Below, piece by piece: positions 32,626 to 45,437 of a DNA stretch of 64,000 nt (positions are counted from its first letter, which is position 1; every line of letters begins with the position of its first letter). Under the pieces are notes generated by a model that did not search any database, was not told the origin of the DNA, and saw nothing but the letters and a program-made list of their open reading frames with translations. Both the position numbers and the translations under genes were made by a program. The stretch comes from Leucobacter sp. L43. GTDB lineage: Bacteria > Actinomycetota > Actinomycetes > Actinomycetales > Microbacteriaceae. The stretch lies in assembly GCF_016597785.1 (NCBI RefSeq), contig NZ_JAENJG010000002.1:496001-560000 (forward strand). Reading direction: 5' to 3'.

Positions 32626-34356
32626 TCAGTGGGCTGGAGGTGGACTGGTTCTCGTCTCCTGCGCGTCGAGCGCGAGTTCCGCCGCCCGAAGCGCCTGCGA
32701 ACTGTAGCGGCCGATCGCGCGCTCCTCGAGCAGCGCGTCGCGCTGCGCATCGAGCACGGTGCGTGCGAGCCGACGGTAGCAGGCGGCCTGCGACTCCTGG
32801 GCCTGTGCCGGCGTCGACCCGGTGGCGGCGAGGGCAAACGCGAGGGGAGCGAGCGTGCTCTTCGCGGTCGCGCGCACACGCCTCACGAGGTCGTCGTCGG
32901 GCACGATCCTTCCATCATCGGCTTCCGCATCGATCTCGATCTCATCCGCGAGCGCCGCGTTGGCGGCGTCGAGCAGATCGCGGCCGAGCGACTGCAGCTC
33001 GGCGGTGCGCGAGCCGTTCGCTCCGTCCGGCCAGAGCTTCGAGATGAAGAGCGGCAGCGTGAGCCCGTGCAGGAGGAGCGTCACGACGGCGACGGCGAAC
33101 GCGATCAGAATGAGCTGCGGGCGATACGGCACATCGGTCGAGATCGACTGGGCGGCTGCGAGGGTGACGACGCCGCGCATACCGCTCCACGACAGGAGTA
33201 CTCCGTCCCGCCAGCCAAGCTGCTGCTCTTGCTCGTGAGCGAGGTCGGCCCGCGATCGTTGTTCGAGCAATTCGAGTTTGCGGAGGCGCCGCTCCGTCGT
33301 GTCGGCGCGACGAGCCCGCGTGAGAATGCGCGAGAACCCGTCGCTTCGCTGCTGATACCGCCCCTTGTCGCCGCGCATCGTCCAGATGAGCGGCACCATG
33401 AACAGCCCGCGAAGCAGGATGAGGATCGCGACGAGGCCGAGTGCGACGAGCGCGATGTGCTCGAGTTGCAGCTCCGTCTCATTGACCTCGTCGAGCAGGG
33501 TGTGCAGTTGCAGACCCATGATGAGGAAGACGCCGTTCTCCAAGCCGAATTGCACCGTGCGCCAGTTGAGGCGCTCGTTCATCCGGGCGGTCGCGGAGAA
33601 CCGTTTCGCCGCGTGATGCCCGGTGTACAGGCCGGTGACGACCACGGCCAGCACACCGGAGGCTCCGAGCGCCTCCGCGGGCATGAACGCGACGAAGGGA
33701 ACGACGAATGAGATGATCGTGTCGTAGACGGGGTTCCGCAGCCGTGCGCGGATCCACACCGTGACCATGCCGATCACGATGCCGATCACGATGGCCGCGA
33801 CGACCGAGAACCCGAAGGAGCCGGCCGCGTCCCAGAAGACGAAACTGCCCGCCACGGCCGCGAGCGCCGTCTTCAGGAGTACGAGAGAAGTGGCGTCGTT
33901 CACGAGGCTCTCGCCCTCGAGAATCGCCACCAGACGCTCCGGCATGCCGAGGCGCTTGCCGATCGACGTCGCCGCAACCGCATCCGTCGGGCTGATCACC
34001 GCTCCGAGAGCCACCGCAGCCGGCAGGGGGATGGCGGGAACGAACCAGTGGAGCGCGAATCCGATCGTCACCGCGGAGATGATGACGAGGAGCACCGAGA
34101 GTCCGATGACGGGGCGGAGGTTTCTTCGGAAATCGATGAGGGGAACATTCACGGCCGCCGAGTAGAGCAGCGGGGGGAGCACCCCGATGAGAATGATCTC
34201 CGGGTCGATCTCGATTCTCGGAATGAACGGGAGGTACCCCGCTCCGATGCCGACGATGACGAGGAGGAGCGGCGCCGCGACGCCGATCTTGCTGCCGAGG
34301 ATCGACGTCCCGACGAGCACGACCACTGCGGCGACTGCGATCAGGCCGATTTCCAT
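32626..34356 (-). CDS. Na+/H+ antiporter, CPA1 family
   Basis: This is a 576-residue cation/proton antiporter. The first 400 residues hold about 12 helices with the conserved core motifs GVLPPLLYSAAV, GAVISPTDAVAATSIGKRLGMP and EGESLVNDATSLVLLK, which carry the acidic transport residues. The cytoplasmic C-terminal part is charged and helical. It should help with pH and sodium homeostasis. The ATG at 34356 has TAGAAT exactly six bases before it and no Shine-Dalgarno, consistent with a leaderless transcript. The winged-helix gene lies upstream on the same strand across a gap of only 28 bases. Confidence 0.92.
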   Translation of the reverse strand: MEIGLIAVAAVVVLVGTSILGSKIGVAAPLLLVIVGIGAGYLPFIPRIEIDPEIILIGVLPPLLYSAAVNVPLIDFRRNLRPVIGLSVLLVIISAVTIGFALHWFVPAIPLPAAVALGAVISPTDAVAATSIGKRLGMPERLVAILEGESLVNDATSLVLLKTALAAVAGSFVFWDAAGSFGFSVVAAIVIGIVIGMVTVWIRARLRNPVYDTIISFVVPFVAFMPAEALGASGVLAVVVTGLYTGHHAAKRFSATARMNERLNWRTVQFGLENGVFLIMGLQLHTLLDEVNETELQLEHIALVALGLVAILILLRGLFMVPLIWTMRGDKGRYQQRSDGFSRILTRARRADTTERRLRKLELLEQRSRADLAHEQEQQLGWRDGVLLSWSGMRGVVTLAAAQSISTDVPYRPQLILIAFAVAVVTLLLHGLTLPLFISKLWPDGANGSRTAELQSLGRDLLDAANAALADEIEIDAEADDGRIVPDDDLVRRVRATAKSTLAPLAFALAATGSTPAQAQESQAACYRRLARTVLDAQRDALLEERAIGRYSSQALRAAELALDAQETRTSPPPAH

Positions 34357-34384: not shown

Positions 34385-35578
34385 TCACCCTGCGTCGGCG
34401 GGCTGCACGACGGAGATGCCGCCGGTCTCGACGCCGTGGAAGTCGGCCCAGTCTCGACTGAGCGGCGCGAGCGCCGGCGCATCGATGTCCGTATCGGGAA
34501 ACGACGCGATCTCGAGCCCTCCGGTTTTCGTCCGAAGGCGCTTCCAGGTGGCCACCACCCGGCCCTTTCGCAGCACGGTAGGGAGGAACATGCCGTTGCG
34601 CCCCGGAACGATGCGGTCGAAGTGCTGCTGATCGAGCTGAGCGGTGCGATCCGTGTACCCGAGCAGGTGCTCGTCGAACGCCGCGAGCAGCGTCCACTCG
34701 GGCAGCCGCGCTTCCGAGACGGCAGAGCCGAGCGATTCAGGATCGACCCAGAGTCTGCCGGCGGCACCCGACACCGGGTCTCCCGACGCATCACGTGCGC
34801 GAGCCTCTGCCAGCTCCCCGGCATCGCGTGCTGCGGCCAGGCCCACGCGGGCCTCCGCGACGGTGAGCCCCGTCCACCAGGCGAAGTCGTTGACGCGGAA
34901 CGGGCCCCGGCACCTGGCGTAGCGCACCGCGAGCTCGCGCAGCGCATCATCGCCCGAGTACTGTCGCGGCGCGGTGATCCAGTGCTCTGCTCTCACGAGA
35001 AGCGGTTCGCCAGACGGGCCGATCGGGCCGAACGTCGCCATTCCGTTCTGGCAGATCCACCAGATCACGTGATAGCGCCAATTGCTCTGCCAGTCGATAC
35101 CCGCTTCGGTCCACGCTTCTGCGAGTGCGTCGCGCTCAAGACCAGCGGTGCCAGCGGCGTCGAGGGCGACGAGGGAGACCTCGACGAGCCGCTCGAGCAC
35201 GGCGTCGCTCATGCCGAGGAAGGCGCGGCGCTTCGGGGCGCCGGCGAGCACTCGGTGGTTGGTGGCTCCCTGCATCCACCCGATGTCTTCGGCCGCGACG
35301 ACGTGCACGGTGCCGCGCATCGGCCACGACCGCACGATACGTCGTTCGGCGAAGGCCGCCTCGACATCGGCGGTCGCCGAACCGGGCGCCCGCACCCCGA
35401 GCGCCCACCGAGCTGACCGCCAGTCCTGCCCCTGCACGGCGAGCATGCGCCGCGCCACACCGGCGATGCGCTCCGCACCCGGCGCTTCTGGTTCGCCGCG
35501 GGTCCAGCTCGTCGCTGTCAGACCGAGCGCATGCACGCGCACGCGAAGCACGTCGGTCGGGGAGAGGGTCTCGGTCAT
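34385..35578 (-). CDS. Winged-helix DNA-binding domain protein (AlkZ/YcaQ-related)
   Basis: This is a 397-residue member of the HTH_42 (PF06224) group, which includes the interstrand-crosslink and alkylation DNA glycosylases AlkZ/AlkX and many uncharacterised actinobacterial relatives. The segment ARRMLAVQGQDWRSARWALGVR near residue 40 corresponds to the Q-x-Q/D catalytic region of the glycosylases. WP..GTVHVVAAEDIGWM and LPTVLRKGRVVATWK are typical later motifs. Glycosylase activity is an inference. The start ATG at 35578 is chosen because TACACT lies exactly six bases upstream and homology begins there; the frame is open to 35725. Confidence 0.8.
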   Translation of the reverse strand: MTETLSPTDVLRVRVHALGLTATSWTRGEPEAPGAERIAGVARRMLAVQGQDWRSARWALGVRAPGSATADVEAAFAERRIVRSWPMRGTVHVVAAEDIGWMQGATNHRVLAGAPKRRAFLGMSDAVLERLVEVSLVALDAAGTAGLERDALAEAWTEAGIDWQSNWRYHVIWWICQNGMATFGPIGPSGEPLLVRAEHWITAPRQYSGDDALRELAVRYARCRGPFRVNDFAWWTGLTVAEARVGLAAARDAGELAEARARDASGDPVSGAAGRLWVDPESLGSAVSEARLPEWTLLAAFDEHLLGYTDRTAQLDQQHFDRIVPGRNGMFLPTVLRKGRVVATWKRLRTKTGGLEIASFPDTDIDAPALAPLSRDWADFHGVETGGISVVQPADAG

Positions 35579-35584
35579 GGCCTC

Positions 35585-35590
35585 AGTGTA
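35585..35590 (-). promoter_or_regulatory. -10 element of a leaderless promoter (winged-helix gene)
   Basis: TACACT on the minus strand ends six bases before the ATG at 35578. The IclR gene on the same strand ends at 35598, so this element sits inside a 19-base gap. Confidence 0.4.
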
Positions 35591-35597
35591 GGTCGCG

Positions 35598-36308
35598 TTA
35601 TGCGACGGTCCCCGGATCGAGGTCTGCTTCCAGCTGTCGGCGAGCATCCCGCATGATCTGGATTGCGTCATCAAGCGCCATGCGTCCTTCCGGGGCGATG
35701 ACGCTGAGAGCACCCAAGCACTCATGCCCCTGCATGAGCGGGACCGCGATCACTTCGATCGCGTCGCCCATCCAGACCGCACGGTGGACCGCGTAGCCCT
35801 GTCTTCTGATGATCGCGAGCTCCTCTTCATAGGGCGCTTGTTCTTCGGCCGTTGCGTGCGGATCGCAGGCGAGGAGTACCTGGCCAGAAGTTGAGCCGAG
35901 CGGCAAGAGAAGCTCGGTTTCGCGGCGCACGGAGAGGGAGCGTTTCGGTTCCAATCGTTCGACGATGAGTGCGGAATCGCCGTTGCGCACGGCAAACGAG
36001 ATGGGCTCTTCGAGTCGATCGACGAGCGTGCGCATATGGCGTGATACCGCTTCGGGCACGCCGGCGTGTGCAATGGCGAACCGACCGAACGCAGCTGCGC
36101 GGATCGAGAGGCGGTACTGGCGGCGGCTGTCCTGCTGAAGCCACCCGGTGTGCACGAGCGTGGTGAGGTACTGGTGTGTGGCAGGGCGGCTCCACCCCAG
36201 CGCATCCGCGATCTCAGAGAGCGTAACCGCCGCGCGGTCGAAATGCATGAAGACCTCGAGGGCGCGAATCGTCTTCTCGACGGACTGCAGGGTGGTGGGA
36301 CCTGACAT
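35598..36308 (-). CDS. IclR family transcriptional regulator
   Basis: This is a 236-residue regulator with an N-terminal winged helix (SVEKTIRALEVFMHFDRAAVTLSEIADALGWSRPATHQYLTTL) and the GAF-like effector domain (VSRHMRTLVDRLEEPISFAVRNGDSALIVERLEP, PLGSTSGQVLLAC). The ATG at 36308 has GGAG a few bases upstream. It is divergent from a seven-kilobase operon of an unknown large protein, a dipeptidase homologue and an ABC importer, and almost certainly controls that operon. Two dyads lie between the genes. Its effector is probably the imported substrate or a breakdown product. Confidence 0.9.
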   Translation of the reverse strand: MSGPTTLQSVEKTIRALEVFMHFDRAAVTLSEIADALGWSRPATHQYLTTLVHTGWLQQDSRRQYRLSIRAAAFGRFAIAHAGVPEAVSRHMRTLVDRLEEPISFAVRNGDSALIVERLEPKRSLSVRRETELLLPLGSTSGQVLLACDPHATAEEQAPYEEELAIIRRQGYAVHRAVWMGDAIEVIAVPLMQGHECLGALSVIAPEGRMALDDAIQIMRDARRQLEADLDPGTVA

Positions 36309-36372
36309 TGCTCTCTCCGATCAGGGCGCTGGCGTGCTTCTCACACTCGTCGAGTTTTTCTCGCACGCCCTC

Positions 36373-36401
36373 TTGACGCGCCGAAGCACCGTGTTTATTG
36401 T
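36373..36401 (+). promoter_or_regulatory. Sigma-70-type promoter for the IclR-linked operon
   Basis: TTGACG (36373-36378) and TATTGT (36396-36401) are separated by exactly 17 bases and face the unknown-protein gene. The DNA just downstream is strikingly AT-rich for this genome. Confidence 0.55.
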
Positions 36402-36402
36402 T

Positions 36403-36442
36403 TTCAGCATAACTGAATCACGATTAAATAATACTTAATCGT
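36403..36442. promoter_or_regulatory. Two dyads downstream of the promoter, candidate IclR operators
   Basis: TTCAG-N5-CTGAA (36403-36417) begins one base after the predicted -10. A longer dyad with 8-bp arms ACGATTAA and TTAATCGT around 7 bases occupies 36420-36442. Both lie where a bound repressor would block transcription of the operon. Confidence 0.5.
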
Positions 36443-36488
36443 CGCTACAACGGGTGCTGTCGAATCAATGATGATTGGAGCGGATAAG

Positions 36489-39017
36489 ATGCGGAATTCT
36501 TACCTTGATGAGGTGTTTTCGCCCCAACGGGTAATGGACCCCAGGAGCCTCGGAGCGCTGCAGCCGAGCCGGCTGAGCGCATCACGCAGTTTTCTCGCGA
36601 AGATGTTGCGCGAGGAGTGGAGAATCCGCCGAGATGCTCTCGAACTCGATGCACGCGGCAACGGGGCGGCTCGCTACACGATCGAGACTCCGGCAGGGAG
36701 TATCACCTATGCCGCATGGCTCAGCGAACCACAGGGAGTGAATCGCACCGGTCGCATCATCGGGTCGTCATGGGACATGATCGGAACCCTCATCGATGGG
36801 ATTGCAAGCGACGAGCAAATCGCAACGTCCGCGTCAGAGCTTCCGAAGCTGTACGAGGGTCGAGCGCCCGAGGGCACGCTGATCTGGATGCGATCGAACC
36901 AGAGCCTGAGGCTCTTCAAACACGTGCGGGATTCGCTCGCCGCAGGGCAACAGCCCGACGCGGCTGAAGTGAAACGAGTCGGCTATCTCATGCGCAATAC
37001 GGGCCTCGACGGGAACGGCACGTTCGGTTCCGTTTCGTTTCCCGCGATTCCCCCCGGGCATCCGCTCGCGCTGTCGTATCACGCGCAGATGCTGTCGGCA
37101 TATCTCATGCGCGAGCTGTCCGTCGATGTCGTCGAAGAACTCGCGCGGCTCGACGCCCCCGACACCGCGGTGCGCCTGGCGCCCGAAGTGCGTCAGCACA
37201 TCGGCGTCGGTAACGGATCGGCGCTCGGACTCGTGATGTTCGTGTACAACCGGCCGGCGCTGATCCACACGTATGTCTCTCTGACGGTCGAAGCGGTGCG
37301 GCACGCGCTAGAGCTACCGATTGAGGCAGGCGACGCACGGTTCGATCAGCTCGAAGCGCTGCTCAATCGCGCGATCCAGTACCGCGCCCTCGAAGACACC
37401 GAGTACCGGGTGTTCACGAACGGAAAGCAGCTCGCCGCAGATCTCCGTCGTATCCGTGCGACTGTTCGAGCTGCTCGCCGGGGAGAGATCACGCGCCTGA
37501 GCGGAGAAACCGCGCTGATAGCGGTGCACCGGTTCGTGAGCGGACGGGTGTCTCCGGAAGCTCTGAGCACGTTCAATACGCTCCTGATCGAACTCGACCC
37601 TGATTTCGCGGACGCGCTGGTGCAGGAGCGCCTGAACTTCGACGAAGCCCTCGACCTCGATCCGCGGACGCCTGCGTGTGAGATGCGGGAAGCACTGCTC
37701 GACACCCTCGGTTGGGCGCTCGCACTCCCCTTGAACGACGCCGAGCATCGCGACCGGGTGTGGTATCAGTCGCGTGCAGCAGAAGAACCGCGATCTGGGC
37801 CGGCGGAGGAAGTTCCGGGAGCTCATGAAGTCATCCCGAATTATCCCTCGCGAGCCCGGGAACTGCTCGACGTGCTCGACAGCGCTGAAGCGGAGACACC
37901 CATCGGCGAGATCATCGCGGCACATCCATCTTTGGAGCACGTGGCTCGATCGGCCGTCGCGCTTCGAGCAATGCCGTACGCCATTCCGCACGCCGATCCC
38001 CACGACATCGACTTCGTTCCGGTCTGGCTCGTGCGCCTCATGAATGCGTGCATCCACGGGCTCGACCGAACCGAAGATTTCTTGAACCGGTCCGTACTCG
38101 GACTCATCTACGACGGAGCGCCGTTCCGTGATGAGCTCGCTGCAGCGCATGCGGATGGCTGGTGGTGGCAGTACCGACCGGCAGAGGTGAAGCGCACAGA
38201 GGGGCCGGGTGAGCCATCCTCGCCCACGCTCACGCCGAAAGTCAGCGCGATCGTGGCACCCCGGCACGATGCGGCGGAGCGCATCACCATGAAGTTTCGG
38301 GAGCTCAGGCTGGCGAGCGGCCGTGCGATGCAGGCGCTCAACGTTCCCGAGGGATCCTGGCACGGCGCTCGCGACTTCTTCATTACGGCGGTGATGGCGA
38401 ACACCCAGGCGATCGCCGGTTTCGCGGCAGCGCTCGCACGTGAACTCGACGAGGAGGGCAACGCGCCGTCATGGCGTGCGCCAGTCGCGAGCCCCGCTGC
38501 CGGCGGACTCATCATCAAGGGTCACGGTGCCAGCCTCCACACGGTCGGTCATGTGCTCGTCCACCAGATCGCCGCTGCAGCGTCGAACTCGGAGGTCGTC
38601 GTCCGCCTCTCCGATCTCAAGGTCGACGGGGCAGCGGCCGGTCTCGCCCTCGCCCTCGCGCGGGTCGGCATCGAATGGAGCCCGACCGAAGGTGATGCAA
38701 GCGAGTACCGCGCGCGGCGAGCAGAAGACCCGGCCGCGATTCGAAGCCTCTATGAGGAGGCCTTCACAGCGCTGCTGGTCGACGGCATCGAGGTGCCGGC
38801 CCAGCAGTGGTGGGACGTTTACTATCCGGGAAACGCCGGGCTCTACCCGGATACTCCGCTTTCGCGGCAGCACACGGGAACGGTCAAGGACGTCTACGTG
38901 CCCGGGCAACAGCTGACGCGTCTCTTCGATCCTGCGGAAGTCGAGAACTCGACCGATCCGAACCGCGATACGGATCACTTCATCCCGCTCACCACCGCTC
39001 AACCAGCGTCCGTCTGA
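36489..39017 (+). CDS. Large protein of unknown function, first gene of dipeptidase-like/ABC operon
   Basis: I do not recognise this 842-residue protein. It has no signal peptide and no membrane helix, so it is probably cytoplasmic. There are two folded-looking regions. Residues 1 to about 420 include WLSEPQGVNRTGRIIGSSWDM, LIWMRSNQSLRLFKHV and a Gly/Asn-rich GVGNGSALGLVMFVYNRPALIH. After an acidic Pro-rich linker (about 425-450) the region from about 455 to 842 ends with GGLIIKGHGASLHTVGHVLVHQ (about 668) and DGIEVPAQQWWDVY. Single His and Asp residues in these motifs could be catalytic but no known motif is complete. The start at 36489 has GGAG eight bases upstream; in-frame ATGs at 36468 and 36471 are less well placed. 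It is followed after 9 bases by the dipeptidase homologue, so it is probably an enzyme of the same pathway. Confidence 0.8.
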   Translation: MRNSYLDEVFSPQRVMDPRSLGALQPSRLSASRSFLAKMLREEWRIRRDALELDARGNGAARYTIETPAGSITYAAWLSEPQGVNRTGRIIGSSWDMIGTLIDGIASDEQIATSASELPKLYEGRAPEGTLIWMRSNQSLRLFKHVRDSLAAGQQPDAAEVKRVGYLMRNTGLDGNGTFGSVSFPAIPPGHPLALSYHAQMLSAYLMRELSVDVVEELARLDAPDTAVRLAPEVRQHIGVGNGSALGLVMFVYNRPALIHTYVSLTVEAVRHALELPIEAGDARFDQLEALLNRAIQYRALEDTEYRVFTNGKQLAADLRRIRATVRAARRGEITRLSGETALIAVHRFVSGRVSPEALSTFNTLLIELDPDFADALVQERLNFDEALDLDPRTPACEMREALLDTLGWALALPLNDAEHRDRVWYQSRAAEEPRSGPAEEVPGAHEVIPNYPSRARELLDVLDSAEAETPIGEIIAAHPSLEHVARSAVALRAMPYAIPHADPHDIDFVPVWLVRLMNACIHGLDRTEDFLNRSVLGLIYDGAPFRDELAAAHADGWWWQYRPAEVKRTEGPGEPSSPTLTPKVSAIVAPRHDAAERITMKFRELRLASGRAMQALNVPEGSWHGARDFFITAVMANTQAIAGFAAALARELDEEGNAPSWRAPVASPAAGGLIIKGHGASLHTVGHVLVHQIAAAASNSEVVVRLSDLKVDGAAAGLALALARVGIEWSPTEGDASEYRARRAEDPAAIRSLYEEAFTALLVDGIEVPAQQWWDVYYPGNAGLYPDTPLSRQHTGTVKDVYVPGQQLTRLFDPAEVENSTDPNRDTDHFIPLTTAQPASV

Positions 39018-39026
39018 AGGAGACTG

Positions 39027-40013
39027 ATGATTTACGTCGATAGCCTGCTCTGCTCGCCACTCGAGACCGAGCGCCCGAACAACCGCATATATCTCGAGGA
39101 GGTGGCAGCCGGAAAGATCGGAGCGATCACCGTGACGGTCGGATTCTGGGAGGACGCCACCGAATCAATGGATCAGCTCGTGAAATGGCGCTATATGGCC
39201 GAAGACAATGCAGACCTCGTCGAGATCGCCTACGGTGCGAGCGACATCAGACGCATCGCCGAATCGGGCCGAACCGCCATCATCCTCGGATTCCAGAACG
39301 TGTCGTTCCTTCAAGGACGTCTCGGCTATGTCGAGCTCTTCGCTCGCATGGGTACTCGCGTCGGGCAGCTCACGTACAACATTCAGAACGACCTCGGGGG
39401 CAGCTGCTACGAACCGCACGACAGCGGGCTCTCCCGATACGGGAAGTACGTGGTACACGAGATGAATCGCTGCGGCATGGTCGTCGACCTCTCCCACGTC
39501 GGCGAACGAACAACGCTCGACGCCATCGAGGCCTCGAACGAACCCGTCGCCATTACACATGCGAATCCCGCATCTCTCGCGCCGCATCCGCGCAACAAGT
39601 CGGATCGGGTGCTCGATGCGCTTCGTGATCATGACGGGATGATCGGAGTGTCGGTGTACCGCAACCTCGTCGGGGAGTACACGTCGCCGCAGCAATGGTC
39701 CGAGCTCGTCGCATGGACGGTCGACCGCGTCGGTATCGACCGCGTGGGGATCGGCACGGATCTCGATCAGAACGGCGGGTTCGCATACGTCGAGTGGATG
39801 CGTCAGGGGCGCTGGGCGCGAGAGATTCAGTACGGCGCGTCGAGCGCGTCGACGCCGGGTCCGACGCCACCGCTCGAGTGGTTCCAGTCGCCCGCGCAGT
39901 TTCCGAATGCTGAGGAGTGCCTGCGCGAGCGCGGGTTCGCTGAGCAGGAAGTCGCGGCGATCATGGGCGAGAACTGGCTTCGCTTTTACGACACCGTCTT
40001 CCGAGAAATCTAG
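39027..40013 (+). CDS. Membrane dipeptidase (M19/renal dipeptidase) homologue with degenerate metal site
   Basis: This is a 328-residue TIM-barrel protein of the M19 family, which normally hydrolyses dipeptides with two zinc ions. The second-half residues are kept: His in DLSH (157), His in THANP (178), Arg in HPRN (189) and Asp in GTDLD (245). The N-terminal HxD ligand pair is missing (the strand reads YVDSLLCS), and the bridging Glu is replaced in LGFQNVS (Gln 90). At most one metal could be held in the usual way, so the activity may differ from simple dipeptide cleavage. There is no signal peptide, so it acts in the cytoplasm, probably on the substrate imported by the ABC system encoded next. 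The ATG at 39027 follows AAGGAG closely. Confidence 0.83.
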   Translation: MIYVDSLLCSPLETERPNNRIYLEEVAAGKIGAITVTVGFWEDATESMDQLVKWRYMAEDNADLVEIAYGASDIRRIAESGRTAIILGFQNVSFLQGRLGYVELFARMGTRVGQLTYNIQNDLGGSCYEPHDSGLSRYGKYVVHEMNRCGMVVDLSHVGERTTLDAIEASNEPVAITHANPASLAPHPRNKSDRVLDALRDHDGMIGVSVYRNLVGEYTSPQQWSELVAWTVDRVGIDRVGIGTDLDQNGGFAYVEWMRQGRWAREIQYGASSASTPGPTPPLEWFQSPAQFPNAEECLRERGFAEQEVAAIMGENWLRFYDTVFREI

Positions 40014-40030
40014 GCCGAGAGGAACCACCC

Positions 40031-40831
40031 ATGGCTGTCATCGATACGTCAACGACGACGTACACCGGCTCCACACTGCGACCCTTCCTGCACGCGGATC
40101 GGATCGTGAAGCGCTTCGGCGAGCACCGCGCCATCGACGACGTCTCGCTGGCAGTCGGGCGCGGAGAGGTGATTTCCGTCATCGGTCCCTCGGGCGCGGG
40201 AAAGAGCACCTTCCTGCGATGCCTGAACCTGCTCGAGATACCCGACTCGGGGTCCCTCTCCATTGGGAATGAAGAGATCGAGTTCGAGGAGGGGCGCGCC
40301 CCGGGACGCAGCCAGGTCGCGCGTTTGCGGCGGCAGGCCGGAATGGTCTTCCAATCGTTCAACCTGTTCCCGCACCTGACCGCTGCGCAGAACATCGAGC
40401 TCGCACAGAAGCGCGTGCTCGGGCGGAGCGTGGAAGAGGCCAGGGAGCGCGCCCGATCGCTGCTCGATCGTGTGGGGCTTGCGGCGAAAGCAGACGCCTT
40501 CCCGAGCCAGTGCTCGGGCGGGCAGCAGCAGCGCATCGCCATTGCGAGAGCACTCGCAATGGATCCTGAGCTCATGCTCTTCGACGAGCCGACATCCGGC
40601 CTCGACCCTGAAGTCGGGGCAGAGATTCTATCGGTGATGCGTGAACTCGCTGATTCCGGAATGACGATGCTGATCGCGACACACGAAATGGAGTTCGCCC
40701 GCCACGTATCCAATCGAGTCATCGTGATGGTCGACGGAGCGATCGTAGAACAGGGGCAGCCCGAGCAGATCATGACCGAGCCGACGAACCCGCGCGTCGG
40801 GCGCTTCCTCTCAGCAGTGCTGGGCCGCTGA
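40031..40831 (+). CDS. ABC transporter ATP-binding protein (polar amino-acid type)
   Basis: This is a 266-residue GlnQ/HisP-like ATPase. About 20 residues precede the core, which has Walker A GPSGAGKST (about 52-60), the Q-loop GMVFQSFNLFPH, signature CSGGQQQR in place of the common LSGGQQQR, Walker B LMLFDEPTSGLDPE and the H-loop IATHE. It is encoded 17 bases after the dipeptidase homologue and one base before the first permease. It energises the importer made of the next three products. Confidence 0.92.
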   Translation: MAVIDTSTTTYTGSTLRPFLHADRIVKRFGEHRAIDDVSLAVGRGEVISVIGPSGAGKSTFLRCLNLLEIPDSGSLSIGNEEIEFEEGRAPGRSQVARLRRQAGMVFQSFNLFPHLTAAQNIELAQKRVLGRSVEEARERARSLLDRVGLAAKADAFPSQCSGGQQQRIAIARALAMDPELMLFDEPTSGLDPEVGAEILSVMRELADSGMTMLIATHEMEFARHVSNRVIVMVDGAIVEQGQPEQIMTEPTNPRVGRFLSAVLGR

Positions 40832-40832
40832 T

Positions 40833-41477
40833 ATGGGCGACGCACTGCTCGCCATCGCGCTCGCCGCCGGCATGACGATTCTGCTCACGGCGGTATCCGG
40901 CGTCATCGGCATCGTGCTGGGGGCGCCTGTGATGCTGCTCTCGCGCAGTCGGTTCGCCCCGGTGCGCGCGTGCTACTGGGGCTTCGTGCACGTCGTCCGC
41001 GGCGTGCCGACCCTCGTCTGGCTCTTCATCGTGTTCTTCGGAATCACGCAGCTCGGCATCACGCTGAGCGCCGTGACCTCCGCCCTGATCACGCTCAGCG
41101 TCATCGCCGTCGCGAGCATGGCCGAGATCTACCGCGGCGGTCTCAACGCGATCAAACCGGGGCAGTGGGAGGCGAGTTCGGCGCTCGGGCTGGGGCAGTT
41201 CGCCACCGCACGCGACGTGCTCTTCCCGCAGCTCTTCCGCGCGGTCTCGCCGACCGTCGCGACCTATCTCGTCGGCCTCATCAAGGAGTCGGCGCTCGCC
41301 TCGACGATCGGTGTCGCCGAGATCACCTTCGTCGCCGGGCTGCAGGTGCAGTACTTCGGCGAGGGGCTCACCTTCTTCGCATTCGCGGGACTGATGTACC
41401 TCGCGCTCAGCGTTCCGCTCGGGGCACTGTCGCGCGTCATCCACGCCCGCCTGACCCGGAGGTACGCGGTCCTATGA
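40833..41477 (+). CDS. ABC transporter permease 1 (polar amino-acid type)
   Basis: This is a 214-residue permease with five predicted helices and the HisQ/GlnP signature (RGVPTLVWLFIVFFGI, then the EAA loop AEIYRGGLNAIKPGQWEASSALGLGQ and LFPQLFRAVSPTVATYLVGLIKESALAS). It pairs with the permease encoded next, whose start overlaps its stop (ATGA). One base separates it from the ATPase gene. Confidence 0.92.
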   Translation: MGDALLAIALAAGMTILLTAVSGVIGIVLGAPVMLLSRSRFAPVRACYWGFVHVVRGVPTLVWLFIVFFGITQLGITLSAVTSALITLSVIAVASMAEIYRGGLNAIKPGQWEASSALGLGQFATARDVLFPQLFRAVSPTVATYLVGLIKESALASTIGVAEITFVAGLQVQYFGEGLTFFAFAGLMYLALSVPLGALSRVIHARLTRRYAVL

Positions 41478-42226
41478 ACGACTTCTCCTGGCTGTGGGAT
41501 TGGCCGACGCACATTCCCGCCCTGCTGCCCGGTCTTGCAGTGGCGATCATGCTCACCGTCGTCTCCTGCGTGATCGGGTACCCGCTCGGCTTCTTCCTGG
41601 CGATCCTCTCCGAGGCGCGGAGCCGCTGGGTCCGATGGACGACGATCGCGGTCGTCGAGACGGGGCGCGGGCTCCCTGCGCTCGTGCTCCTGTACATCGT
41701 GTACCGCGGTCTTCCCCAACTCGGCGTCCTGATCGATGCAATTCCGTCAGCGATCATTGCGCTCACCATCACCGCAGCCGCCTACTCCGCCGAGATGATC
41801 CGTGCCAGCATCTCAGCATTGCCGCACGGACAGACCGATGCAGCAGACGCATTGGGATTGGGTCGGGCCGACCGGTTCCGCTTCATCATCCTGCCGCAGG
41901 CTGCGCGAATCTCGATCCCGCCGCTCGTGAACCTCACGATCACGATGTTCCACATCACGTCGCTCGCGAGCATCATCACCGTCGCTGAGATCATGCACGC
42001 CGCGTATCTGAGCGGAGCGATCAACTGGAGATACATGTCCGTCTACATCGCAGCCGCATTCGTGTACGCCATCATCGCGATTCCCGGGGCGGTGCTGGCC
42101 GGCCGCCTCGAGCAACGACTCGGGGGCGGCGCACCGACCCGACGCAAGCGCCGAGGCCTGCGGAACTCCCGTGATCCCGGCCCCGCCGCGGCACCCGCCG
42201 CGGCTCGAGAACCCGCGCCGGCCTGA
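41474..42226 (+). CDS. ABC transporter permease 2 (polar amino-acid type)
   Basis: This is a 250-residue second permease of the importer. It has ETGRGLPALVLLYIVYRGLPQ, the EAA loop AEMIRASISALPHGQTDAADALGLGR and PQAARISIPPLVNLTITMFHITSLAS, followed by a basic, Pro/Ala-rich cytoplasmic tail of about 30 residues. The true start is the ATG at 41474 that overlaps the previous stop by four bases, although the frame is open further upstream. Two different permeases imply a heterodimeric channel, unlike the importer at 18995-21632. Confidence 0.92.
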   Translation: MNDFSWLWDWPTHIPALLPGLAVAIMLTVVSCVIGYPLGFFLAILSEARSRWVRWTTIAVVETGRGLPALVLLYIVYRGLPQLGVLIDAIPSAIIALTITAAAYSAEMIRASISALPHGQTDAADALGLGRADRFRFIILPQAARISIPPLVNLTITMFHITSLASIITVAEIMHAAYLSGAINWRYMSVYIAAAFVYAIIAIPGAVLAGRLEQRLGGGAPTRRKRRGLRNSRDPGPAAAPAAAREPAPA

Positions 42227-42287
42227 CGCTGCCCCGACCTGAAATTCACCGTCACCCACTATTACGCACATCAATCAGGAGGCACCA

Positions 42288-43148
42288 ATGAAGCACCGAC
42301 TGACCCGCACCGCAGCGATCGGCGCTGTTGCCGCGCTGTTCCTGGCCGGCTGCAGCAGCTCAGGCGACGACTCGTCGCAGGCGGTGAGCAAGGACTGCGT
42401 TCCCGCTCACGAGGGCATCGAAACCATCAAGCCCGGGGTGCTGACCGTCGCCCACTACGACTACCCACCATTCGCATATATGGAGGAAGGGGAGTTCGTC
42501 GGCATCGAGGGCGAAATCATGACTCAGATCGCGGAGATGGAGTGTTTGGACCTTGAGCTCGTGCAGGGCGATGGCTCCGCGATGATCACATCGGTGCAGA
42601 CCGGACGCGCAGACACCACGTTGGGCAGCTGGTACCGCACCGCGGAACGCGCGGAGGTGGTGCGACTCAGCAGCCCGGTCGTGACGTCCCCGCTCTCAGT
42701 CGTCTCGACGAGCGGTGTGAAGACCGTCGACGAGCTCGCCGAGCTCGATGCCGTCGGTGCAGGGCAGGCGCTCGTCGGCGTCGAAGAGATGCAGGCCCTC
42801 CTCGGAGGCAAGCTCAAACTCTACGCGAACAACGATGCTGAGTTCGCCGACTTCCAGGCGGGCCGCATCGACGGTGCGGTGCTCGGGCTTGGCGCCGCGG
42901 TGACGCTGCTCGAGCTGTACCCCGTCGAAGGGGCGACCGTCGAACCGCTCGAAGCCGATCCGCGCCTCTCGGCGACGGTGAATGTCGGGCAGACGAACTT
43001 CCCCGTCAACCTTGACAATGAATCGCTCGGCGAAGCCATCGACGAGAACATCGCGCAGCTGCGCGAGGACGGGACGATCGCCGAACTCGCCGAGAAGTAC
43101 GGCTTCCCGGCAGAGATCGCTGACCCGGGGGAGCCGAACCTGCTGTAA
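42288..43148 (+). CDS. ABC transporter substrate-binding lipoprotein (family 3)
   Basis: This is a 286-residue solute receptor. The signal peptide ends in the lipobox LAGC (Cys about 23) and is followed by a Ser-rich spacer. The core shows GVLTVAHYDYPPFAYMEEGEFVGIEGEIMTQIAE and TSVQTGRADTTLGSWYRTAERAEVV, with second-lobe strands beginning [12 protein letters not shown]. It delivers ligand to the two permeases encoded upstream. The AGGAGG motif is seven bases before the ATG. The gene closes the operon and is followed by a hairpin terminator. The ligand is unknown; the dipeptidase homologue suggests a dipeptide or amide-like compound. Confidence 0.9.
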   Translation: MKHRLTRTAAIGAVAALFLAGCSSSGDDSSQAVSKDCVPAHEGIETIKPGVLTVAHYDYPPFAYMEEGEFVGIEGEIMTQIAEMECLDLELVQGDGSAMITSVQTGRADTTLGSWYRTAERAEVVRLSSPVVTSPLSVVSTSGVKTVDELAELDAVGAGQALVGVEEMQALLGGKLKLYANNDAEFADFQAGRIDGAVLGLGAAVTLLELYPVEGATVEPLEADPRLSATVNVGQTNFPVNLDNESLGEAIDENIAQLREDGTIAELAEKYGFPAEIADPGEPNLL

Positions 43149-43186: not shown

Positions 43187-43225
43187 CGACGGGACGGGAT
43201 CACCTTCGCAGGTCCCGTCCCGTCG
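43187..43225. terminator. Hairpin terminator of the IclR-linked operon
   Basis: There are perfect 13-bp arms at 43187-43199 and 43213-43225, with an inner ACCT/AGGT pair inside the loop. It starts 39 bases after the receptor stop. Confidence 0.65.
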
Positions 43226-44247: not shown

Positions 44248-45333
44248 TTAGAAGCGAGCCCGAGCGTACTGCGGCGGTACGAGCTCCTCCGCAACGGGTG
44301 CGCGCAGTTCGTGCGCCCAGCTGATCGGCAGATGCGGGTTGGCGAGCAGCGGGCGGCCGAGGGAGATGATGTCGGCCTGGCCGGTGGCGAGGATGCCCTC
44401 CGCCTGCTCGGCGCTCGTGATGAGCCCGACTGCGCTGATGGGGAGCGCTCCGGTCTCCCGCAGCTGCGCTGCGAGCGGCACCTGGTAGGACGGGCCGACC
44501 GGAATCGGGGCGCCTGGTGTATTGCCGGCCGTCGAGGTGTCGACCAGATCGGCACCGTCTTCCGCGAGCCACCCCGTCACGCGGGCCGCCTCTGCGCCGT
44601 CGAACCCGCCGTCGAGCCATTCGGTGGCCGAGACGCGCACCACCATCGGCAGCTCGGGGTGCGCTGCGCGAACCGCGCGCACGATCTCACGGAGCAACCG
44701 CGCACGCCCTGCAAGATCACCGCCGTACTCATCGGCGCGTTCGTTGGAGAAGGGCGAGAGGAACTCGTGGATGAGATAGCCGTGAGCGGCATGGATCTCG
44801 ACCACGTCGAAGCCGGCCTGGACTGCGCGGCGCGCTGCATCGACGAACGACTGCACCAGATCTGCGATGTCGGCCGTGTCGAGTGCGCGAGGCTCAGCGA
44901 AGTCACCGAACGCGAGCGCCGAAGGCGCGACGGTCTCCCAGCCGCCCTCCGCGATCGGAACCGAGCCATCGGCGAAGCCGGGGAGCGATGGATACGTCGA
45001 TCCCTTGCGGCCAGCATGCGCGAGCTGGATGCCGATCTTCGCCCCATGGGCGTGCACTGCGTCGACGATGCGGGAGAGGGGCGGGAGCTGCGCGTCGTCC
45101 CAGATGCCCGGGCAGCGCGGACTGATGCGTCCCTCAGGCGTCACCGCGGTCGCCTCCATGAACACGAGACCGGCTCCGCCGCGAGCGAAACTGCCGAGAT
45201 GCTGCAGGTGCCAATCGCCGACGATCCCGTCTTCGGACTCGACCGAGTACTGGCACATCGGCGCCACCCAGAGTCGATTGCGGATCTCAAGATTGCGGAG
45301 GGTGAACGAGCGGAAGAGGAGGGGATCTGCCAT
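44248..45333 (-). CDS. NADH:flavin oxidoreductase, old yellow enzyme family (YqjM-like)
   Basis: This is a 361-residue FMN enzyme that reduces activated C=C bonds of enones or similar compounds. YqjM-class features are APMCQYS near residue 25 (regulatory Cys and Tyr), GDWHLQHLGSFARGG, QLAHAGRKGS, the His pair region EIHAAHGYLIHEFLSPFSNERADEYGG and the C-terminal SLGRPLLANPHLP. ATG at 45333 is chosen where homology begins; a TAGGCT hexamer lies eight bases upstream and no Shine-Dalgarno is visible, suggesting a very short leader. It is divergent from the ABC exporter gene. Confidence 0.92.
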   Translation of the reverse strand: MADPLLFRSFTLRNLEIRNRLWVAPMCQYSVESEDGIVGDWHLQHLGSFARGGAGLVFMEATAVTPEGRISPRCPGIWDDAQLPPLSRIVDAVHAHGAKIGIQLAHAGRKGSTYPSLPGFADGSVPIAEGGWETVAPSALAFGDFAEPRALDTADIADLVQSFVDAARRAVQAGFDVVEIHAAHGYLIHEFLSPFSNERADEYGGDLAGRARLLREIVRAVRAAHPELPMVVRVSATEWLDGGFDGAEAARVTGWLAEDGADLVDTSTAGNTPGAPIPVGPSYQVPLAAQLRETGALPISAVGLITSAEQAEGILATGQADIISLGRPLLANPHLPISWAHELRAPVAEELVPPQYARARF

Positions 45334-45437
45334 AGCCAGTGAGCCTACTCCCGGCCTCCGACAATCGCGATGCGGGGAAGAAGAACGGCGGATGGTACGT
45401 TGCACCTTCCGACACCATTGAAGGAGGCGCTCACGAC

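Follow-up and report, generated by a model that had tools for sequence, protein, structure and literature searches.

We have analysed a gene block at positions 35598 to 43148 of a stretch of 64,000 nucleotides (the window), which is part of contig C2 in the genome of Leucobacter sp. L43 (3.15 Mb, 67% GC). In this block an IclR-type regulator gene is divergent from six close-set genes, which encode an 842-aa protein, a protein of the M19 peptidase family (the M19-like protein) and an ATP-binding cassette (ABC) importer. In most relatives the 842-aa protein corresponds to two genes, one for an N protein (residues 1–575 of the window protein, ~575 aa) and one for a C protein (about residues 600–842, ~240 aa), and we have found that these two and the M19-like protein make up a fixed module. 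The whole unit is best read as an accessory catabolic operon that is gained or lost as a block, and its presence or absence at a fixed site is directly observed. As to its function, the reading that we put first, at somewhat less than an even chance, is the uptake and opening of a small zwitterionic nitrogen compound, not a dipeptide, by the N-C protein and the M19-like protein.

The relatives of N were collected by a contig profile scan, which gave 146 confirmed relatives, of which 80 were kept (rarer branches may be absent). With 10 loci from related genomes this makes 90, two of which repeat a genome, leaving 88 non-duplicate loci. C lies downstream of N on the same strand in all 88; the two are separate genes in 73 loci and fused in 15. 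The M19-like gene is at most 3.5 kb from N in 87 loci and 6 kb away in the last one (L058), and an IclR match (E < 1e-20) lies within 8 kb of N in 88/88. The fused members, 16 with the window included, form one branch of the N tree (SH-aLRT 100, by a quick method). Since PAAT-type permease genes are found in the window and in all the 15 other fused-clade stretches, the importer is part of the unit; a family-3 solute-binding protein (SBP) was called in 12 of these 15 loci with a simple gene caller, one stretch (L019) stopping at a contig edge. Overall, these observations bear out much of an earlier prediction made from the sequence of the window (the original prediction): the 842-aa family and the M19-like gene, whose joint occurrence it proposed to check, go strictly together in the 88 loci and in 16/16 copies of the genus, the importer does belong to the unit, and the idea of a self-contained uptake-and-degradation system is supported. 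The N family is widespread, with at least 146 loci, and the annotations in the plasmid records, where given, read 'hypothetical protein'.

N is present in 11 of the 41 genomes of the genus (the window genome included), in 16 copies, and each copy is adjoined on the same contig and strand by an M19-like gene whose product is 47–100% identical to that of the window. Among the 30 genomes of the genus lacking N, none holds an M19 protein above 41% identity. The genes that flank the block, for a Na+/H+ exchanger (32626–34356) and a flavin mononucleotide (FMN) oxidoreductase (44248–45405), are found on a single contig in 31 of the 41 genomes. The distance between them is 58–1483 bp in 26 genomes, all without the cassette at this site, and 9.1–10.0 kb in three (G000, G004, G016), where the cassette is present; for the other two, G022 (4.8 kb) and G009 (7.6 kb), the comparison covered the spacing. 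As the block recurs in other genomes and its flanks are free of the cassette in 26/31, it should be more than a chance arrangement. In the phylum as a whole, N was found in 5 of 396 evenly drawn genomes (again with the window genome included). The window genome itself carries two further N-C-M19 cassettes: one (L009, C1:1318001-1338000) with a taurine/NMT1-type importer and an IclR gene directly after N, the other (L010, C3:171001-191000) beside an Opp-type importer. Separately, a second class of M19 proteins, 39–41% identical to the window protein and encoded away from N, was seen in genomes of the genus (G004, G015, G635, G637, G639, G642 and G645).

The layout of the block is given in Table 1. 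Coordinates and Pfam families confirm that the IclR gene, with both its helix-turn-helix (HTH) and its effector domain above the Pfam cut-off, is divergent from six genes, which are spaced by 9, 17, 1, -4 (ATGA) and 61 bases, and that the two-permease importer is complete, with one ABC_tran, two BPD_transp_1 and one SBP_bac_3 match. For the 842-aa gene, a further in-frame ATG exists upstream at 36468, and a GGAG at 36477–36480 suits the start at 36489.

Table 1 Features of the putatively IclR-controlled unit and its borders, in window coordinates
Feature	Position	Strand	Basis
IclR-type regulator	35598..36308	-	Pfam HTH_IclR (PF09339) E 4.9e-15, IclR_C (PF01614) E 5.6e-12
Promoter-like site TTGACG-17-TATTGT	36373..36401	+	Sigma-70-like scan
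Palindrome ACGATTAAATA-A-TACTTAATCGT, candidate IclR operator	36420..36442	.	11-nt arms, directly after the promoter-like site
842-aa protein gene	36489..39017	+	N and C domains
N domain of the 842-aa protein	36489..38213	+	No assigned family; own gene in 73/88 loci
C domain, shortened Ldh_2-like (DUF3726-related), fused to N	38250..39017	+	Foldseek, hhalign, own gene in relatives
M19-like protein, rewired active site	39027..40013	+	Pfam Peptidase_M19 E 1.3e-70
ABC importer ATPase, PAAT type	40031..40831	+	ABC_tran E 6e-34
ABC importer permease 1	40833..41477	+	BPD_transp_1; HEQRo_perm_3TM above cut-off
ABC importer permease 2	41474..42226	+	BPD_transp_1; HEQRo_perm_3TM above cut-off; ATGA overlap with permease 1
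Solute-binding lipoprotein (SBP family 3)	42288..43148	+	SBP_bac_3 E 8.5e-25
GC-rich hairpin, candidate terminator	43187..43225	+	Perfect 13-bp stem, 13-nt loop, no T run

The control signals are less firm than the genes. A single promoter at the front had been proposed, and the scan did find one sigma-70-like site; since shuffled sequences give 1.2 by chance, this site alone is no evidence, and its TTGAC element is present in four of the seven other rows (L012, L019, L020, L028) of the intergenic alignment. The palindrome that follows may be the operator of the IclR protein: in the eight aligned intergenic regions of orthologues both half-sites are kept, as TTAA/TTAA in four rows and TCAA/TTGA in the other four, as an operator would show. 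A single terminator had been proposed for the end. The terminator scan, which does no better than on shuffled sequences, found none after the last gene, and the perfect 13-bp inverted repeat located there without a T run is a candidate terminator. The short-chain dehydrogenase/reductase gene downstream of this hairpin has no matching gene in L012. At the other border, the gene of an AlkZ-like DNA glycosylase (34385–35725), when read from its first start, shares 128 bases with the end of the IclR gene; its true start is probably further in.

A distant branch of the N family, here called the marine branch, occurs in plasmid records of Rhodobacteraceae and rhizobia, in operons consisting of a LysR regulator, an aldehyde dehydrogenase (ALDH), an M19-like protein, N and a DUF3726 protein, mostly together with an Ldh_2 enzyme and carrying a BCCT transporter or a glycine-betaine ABC importer. 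Aligned by hhalign over 543 columns, the N profiles of the window and of this branch reach probability 100 and E 4.2e-72, at 27% identity, and marine N is a separate branch of the N tree. In 40 marine loci from 40 genomes of the family of G041 (mostly top-scoring and thus non-random, three of them truncated at a contig end), we counted C in 40, M19 in 38, ALDH and LysR in 30 each, Ldh_2 in 26, BCCT in 15 and SoxA-type genes in 4. Of 198 genomes sampled from this family, 92 have N, some hits being fragments, and among the 92 G041 and G192 score as window-type. Sarcosine-oxidase-type genes with an adjoining regulator gene accompany four of the seven annotated plasmid loci (L101, L103, L108, L110; the genera are Phaeobacter, Ruegeria (TM1040), Aliiroseovarius and Shinella), and are not beside L106, L107 and L123. 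A single ALDH, that of L101, was compared with models; it comes closest to those of 2,5-dioxovalerate dehydrogenase, without reaching their cut-off.

Searches with N gave no significant match in Pfam, NCBIfam or PHROG, and nothing in the PDB sequences by single sequence or by a profile, which included some misplaced C rows. The 842-aa protein had been called unassignable in the original prediction, and this stands insofar as nothing in Pfam matches it, even at E values as high as 10, except that it is in fact two fused proteins. The AlphaFold2 model of the whole chain has pLDDT 87.1 and pTM 0.90 (the alignment held partly misplaced C-only rows), and a Foldseek search with N gave no solved fold (best E 0.06, probability 0.12). 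We treated as noise the likeness to adenylosuccinate lyase/fumarase or YgiF (Foldseek E 0.06 or worse, probability up to 0.14), the structure matches in BFVD (best E 0.79) and the weak matches to RAQPRD, FlbD and PHROG. Comparison of 67 window-type with 46 marine-type N proteins reveals 47 near-invariant positions common to both branches, 10 of them arginine, and 15 positions that switch as a set between the branches. Several of the latter adjoin shared residues; examples are N170, D174 and T178, which lie close to R169 and G177, and E432, the neighbour of E433. The simplest reading of such switches amid shared positions is one chemistry on different substrates.

C looks like a shortened dehydrogenase of the Ldh_2 family (PF02615; type II malate/lactate and ureidoglycolate dehydrogenases and imine reductases), in predicted fold and weakly in sequence. 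When C was modelled alone with AlphaFold2 (pLDDT 88.1), Foldseek matched it to type II malate/lactate dehydrogenases with probability 1.00, E 4.5e-3 and TM 0.42; the top hits span 133–180 columns. This is a partial likeness of fold, extending over about 135 residues, and the window protein has no Ldh_2 match in Pfam. Among relatives, the C protein of L049 reaches Ldh_2 at E 0.00039, and a 317-aa protein adjoining an archaeal (Natrinema) N reaches it at E 4.8e-9; neither passes the curated cut-off. The C profile aligns by hhalign to the DUF3726 proteins (probability 74.6, E 2.6e-5) and weakly to the marine Ldh_2 proteins (probability 7.9, E 0.0044); the window protein has no PF12525 (DUF3726) match in Pfam, and no paper naming DUF3726 was found in the literature searched. 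Unlike Ldh_2 enzymes, C has only about 240 aa, carries its own conserved C-terminal S-R-x-H-x-G stretch, and adjoins or is fused with N. A circular permutation of C relative to Ldh_2 was considered and dropped, as a doubled profile brought no gain (E 0.0042 against 0.0044 for the linear one).

The M19-like protein shares the fold family of renal and membrane dipeptidases (PF01244) over residues 13–320. We surveyed 135 rows, 91 of window type (the window and 90 loci, including two repeats) and 44 of marine type. H157, H178, R189 and D245 are kept in all of them. The two-metal site of the dipeptidases (the HxD motif, the bridging glutamate and the substrate-site histidine, at the positions of renal dipeptidase) is absent from the window protein. 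If the canonical residues are numbered H20, D22, E125 and H152, and the first two are placed at L7 and C9, the four places hold L7, C9, Q90 and Y117 in 91/91 window-type rows and L7, Y9, Q90 and Y117 in 44/44 marine-type rows. The exchanges of E to Q90 and of H to Y117 are visible in the alignment with GliJ (5lx0). The marine branch further differs from the window branch in having Y and H for C9 and W41. Since the replacements are without exception in 135 rows, we consider this a conserved alternative site and not decay, so that the degenerate metal site of the original prediction is confirmed and may be better called rewired. On this evidence, 'membrane dipeptidase' looks like a misnomer for the M19 proteins of this branch. 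The nearest solved relative by far is 2i5g (210 bits, the next 86), which is named only 'amidohydrolase' and which we take to be P. aeruginosa PA5396. In the literature searched, no paper pairs PA5396 with dipeptidase or 2I5G with amidohydrolase, and the papers of one further search name neither PA5396 nor PA5397. A predicted dipeptidase before dgcAB is mentioned for Vibrio natriegens and P. aeruginosa in an excerpt of one paper (PMC12093977).

The window importer is of the PAAT kind, sharing the ATPase, two HEQRo-type permeases and the family-3 SBP with the cystine (Tcy), glutamine (Gln) and ectoine (Ehu) importers. The best NCBIfam models of its ATPase are TcyN, GlnQ and, third, EhuA (among the best 25 of 203), each below its cut-off. 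As no specific equivalog cut-off is reached among the models listed, these do not call the cargo. Among the solved chains nearest to the window SBP are binders of glutamine and of Lys/Arg/Orn (best E 5.6e-17). In other clades the importers vary: besides the PAAT type of the fused clade there are NMT1, Opp and polyamine types (one or two members of each importer or neighbour cluster were put to Pfam, the others being assigned by clustering). The SBP cluster of the polyamine-type (SBP_bac_8) system spans 45 of the 88 loci, and one of its members is nearest to an unnamed SBP, 4i1d, followed by binders of gamma-aminobutyric acid (GABA), polyamines, agropine and mannopine. For one NMT1-type SBP, the closest chains are an exported protein without a name (3qsl) and a formylaminopyrimidine binder.

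It had been predicted that the unit imports a dipeptide- or amide-like compound and breaks it down by an unusual pair of enzymes; in such a reading the M19-like protein would be the hydrolase and the 842-aa protein an accessory enzyme. The M19 fold family would suit this, as would the Opp-type genes (SBP_bac_5) beside seven cassettes grouped as Opp type and the retention of the second metal site positions H157 and H178 in 135/135 rows. However, the residues at all four other places are replaced in just as many rows, the window SBP belongs to family 3 and not 5, and the importers of the relatives include pyrimidine-binder-like and marine glycine-betaine types. Because of the replaced M19 sites, the varied importers, and the imine-, aldehyde- and amino-group enzymes near part of the loci, we find the dipeptide or amide substrate unsupported, and regard it as unlikely.

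The enzymes just mentioned were counted as clusters anywhere in the 88 fetched stretches, so not all lie within the operon: a thiamine diphosphate (ThDP) enzyme in 30, a GABA-type aminotransferase in 22, RidA in 22, ALDH in 16, a PuuR-like (cupin-HTH) regulator in 13 and a GlcD-type oxidase in 6. One aminotransferase passes the TIGR00700 cut-off, while one ALDH resembling succinate-semialdehyde dehydrogenase and one PuuR-like regulator stay below theirs. These clusters bring up another substrate class, in which the importer would take an amine or an amino-acid conjugate, N-C-M19 would free GABA or the like, and GabT/GabD-type enzymes would feed the GABA-like product to succinate. The aminotransferase, ALDH and cupin-HTH counts agree with a polyamine- or GABA-related compound, as do the GABA, polyamine, agropine and mannopine binders that are the nearest named chains to the polyamine-type SBP. 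S. meliloti may add to this, since SMb20383 appears by its position to belong to the N locus of that species. The gene is annotated for spermidine/putrescine or histidine transport in an extract of a published study (PMC4960864). However, the 15 fused-clade stretches contain no aminotransferase, RidA or cupin-HTH gene; of all neighbour clusters they hold only one ThDP gene (L022) and one ALDH gene (L026), and none lies in the window operon. In addition, the marine branch has betaine-type transporters. We therefore consider this explanation doubtful.

The marine branch offers a more specific comparison. A homarine operon, homABCDER, with N-methylglutamate as product, is said to have been described in 2026 by Ferrer-Gonzalez et al. 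(Nat Microbiol). Because five enzymes and a regulator fit the marine operon, the marine branch is, on synteny and on the gene set reported, probably the hom operon. In that case the original prediction of an undescribed system would fall in part, as the homarine operon would contain members of the same three families, N, a DUF3726-type C and the rewired M19, side by side and with a transporter and a regulator. The differences are considerable. The homarine-type operon has LysR, BCCT or a glycine-betaine ABC importer and separate N and C, whereas the window has IclR, a PAAT importer and fused N-C. It also has the ALDH and Ldh_2 enzymes, and its residues at the 15 switched sites of N and at sites 9 and 41 of M19 are not those of the window. 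Indeed, no ALDH, Ldh_2, LysR or betaine transporter gene is found within 35598–43148. When the same profiles were run on the 88 window-type loci, SoxA, SoxB, BCCT and the glycine-betaine SBP were found in none, Ldh_2 in one and the marine ALDH type in four; according to these counts, the two branches do not share these partners. Nor are mgd genes beside any of the 88 loci. In R. pomeroyi, mgdABCD (SPO1585-1588) has an AraC gene, tmaR (SPO1584), on its upstream side, and Mgd is involved in the catabolism of homarine, as stated with reference to 2026 work in the relevant portion of one article (PMC13390433).

Could the window unit then degrade homarine or trigonelline, that is, an N-methylated pyridine carboxylate, just as the marine operon would? 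The N, C and M19 families are common to both branches, and with EhuA as third-best model of the ATPase a cyclic zwitterion is conceivable as cargo. On the other hand, the 15 N positions and the C9/W41 pair of M19 differ between the branches as described, and without betaine-type partners in the window branch the substrate should not be simply homarine. We hold this specific assignment to be very improbable.

Three further loci were observed. The plasmid pPGA1_262 of Phaeobacter inhibens carries a second ALDH-M19-N-DUF3726 set of marine type (L123, 8112–12902), which adjoins a dimethylsulfoniopropionate (DMSP) demethylase and a dmdD gene, with no BCCT or glycine-betaine transporter listed next to it. 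In Natrinema versiforme pNVE500 (L105, 12088–17282), a haloarchaeal N is followed by the 317-aa Ldh_2-like protein, taken as C, and by BCCT; aldehyde dehydrogenase and hydantoinase genes are nearby and no M19 is listed. Mesorhizobium ciceri pMc1284 (L109, 12019–14420) has a very divergent N and an unassigned 255-aa neighbour inside an ABC importer operon, with no M19 annotated in the stretch.

Returning to a small zwitterionic nitrogen compound as the substrate, the unit might operate as follows. The IclR protein would bind the palindrome beside the promoter-like site and repress the unit as long as no inducer is present, and the PAAT importer, judged by its class, would take in one such compound. 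N and C would act as one two-domain enzyme, which with the M19-like protein opens or trims the compound, most likely an N-heterocycle or an N-substituted amino acid related to the pyridine-carboxylate kind. The product may be of an open-chain imine plus aldehyde type, which a 2,5-dioxovalerate-type ALDH and an Ldh_2 enzyme would suit. The M19-like protein could provide a hydrolytic step, for example the removal of a formyl or acyl group, with its rewired site in place of the two-zinc site; if the product of homarine is N-methylglutamate, as reported, one carbon is lost, which suits a hydrolytic deformylation by M19. RidA, the GABA-type aminotransferase and ALDH (Ldh_2 in the marine branch), presumably encoded elsewhere in Leucobacter, would finish the pathway. 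The Ldh_2 family includes imine reductases, and RidA is an imine hydrolase; with RidA near 22/88 and Ldh_2 near 1/88 window-type loci, it looks as if the imine is hydrolysed and not reduced. A piperideine-carboxylate reductase is among the Foldseek matches.

Several points weigh against this reading. N is only 27% identical to marine N, soxA-type genes occur in just 4/40 marine stretches, and the lack of betaine-type partners in the window branch speaks against a betaine. The window SBP is nearest to ordinary amino-acid binders, and the aminotransferase near 22/88 loci could mean polyamine- or GABA-related compounds. The identity of the marine branch with hom, based on synteny and the reported gene set, is likewise no more than probable. 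A bolder proposal, which we hold to be rather less likely than not, is that N-C constitutes a new enzyme class, with an unsolved fold and a cut-down Ldh_2 partner, that would open or dearomatise N-heterocyclic zwitterions without flavin or Rieske chemistry and hand the product to a deformylase-like M19.

Overall, as N is tied to C and to a rewired M19, a hypothetical protein becomes one part of a module of three, open to functional study in several organisms that can be cultured. Should the marine branch prove to be the homarine operon, the Leucobacter unit would be linked to the enzymes of a marine osmolyte. If the proposal of a new enzyme class is true, the marine and the IclR branches would form a single class whose members act on different rings, spanning Actinomycetota, Pseudomonadota and haloarchaea and paired with whichever importer suits the compound.

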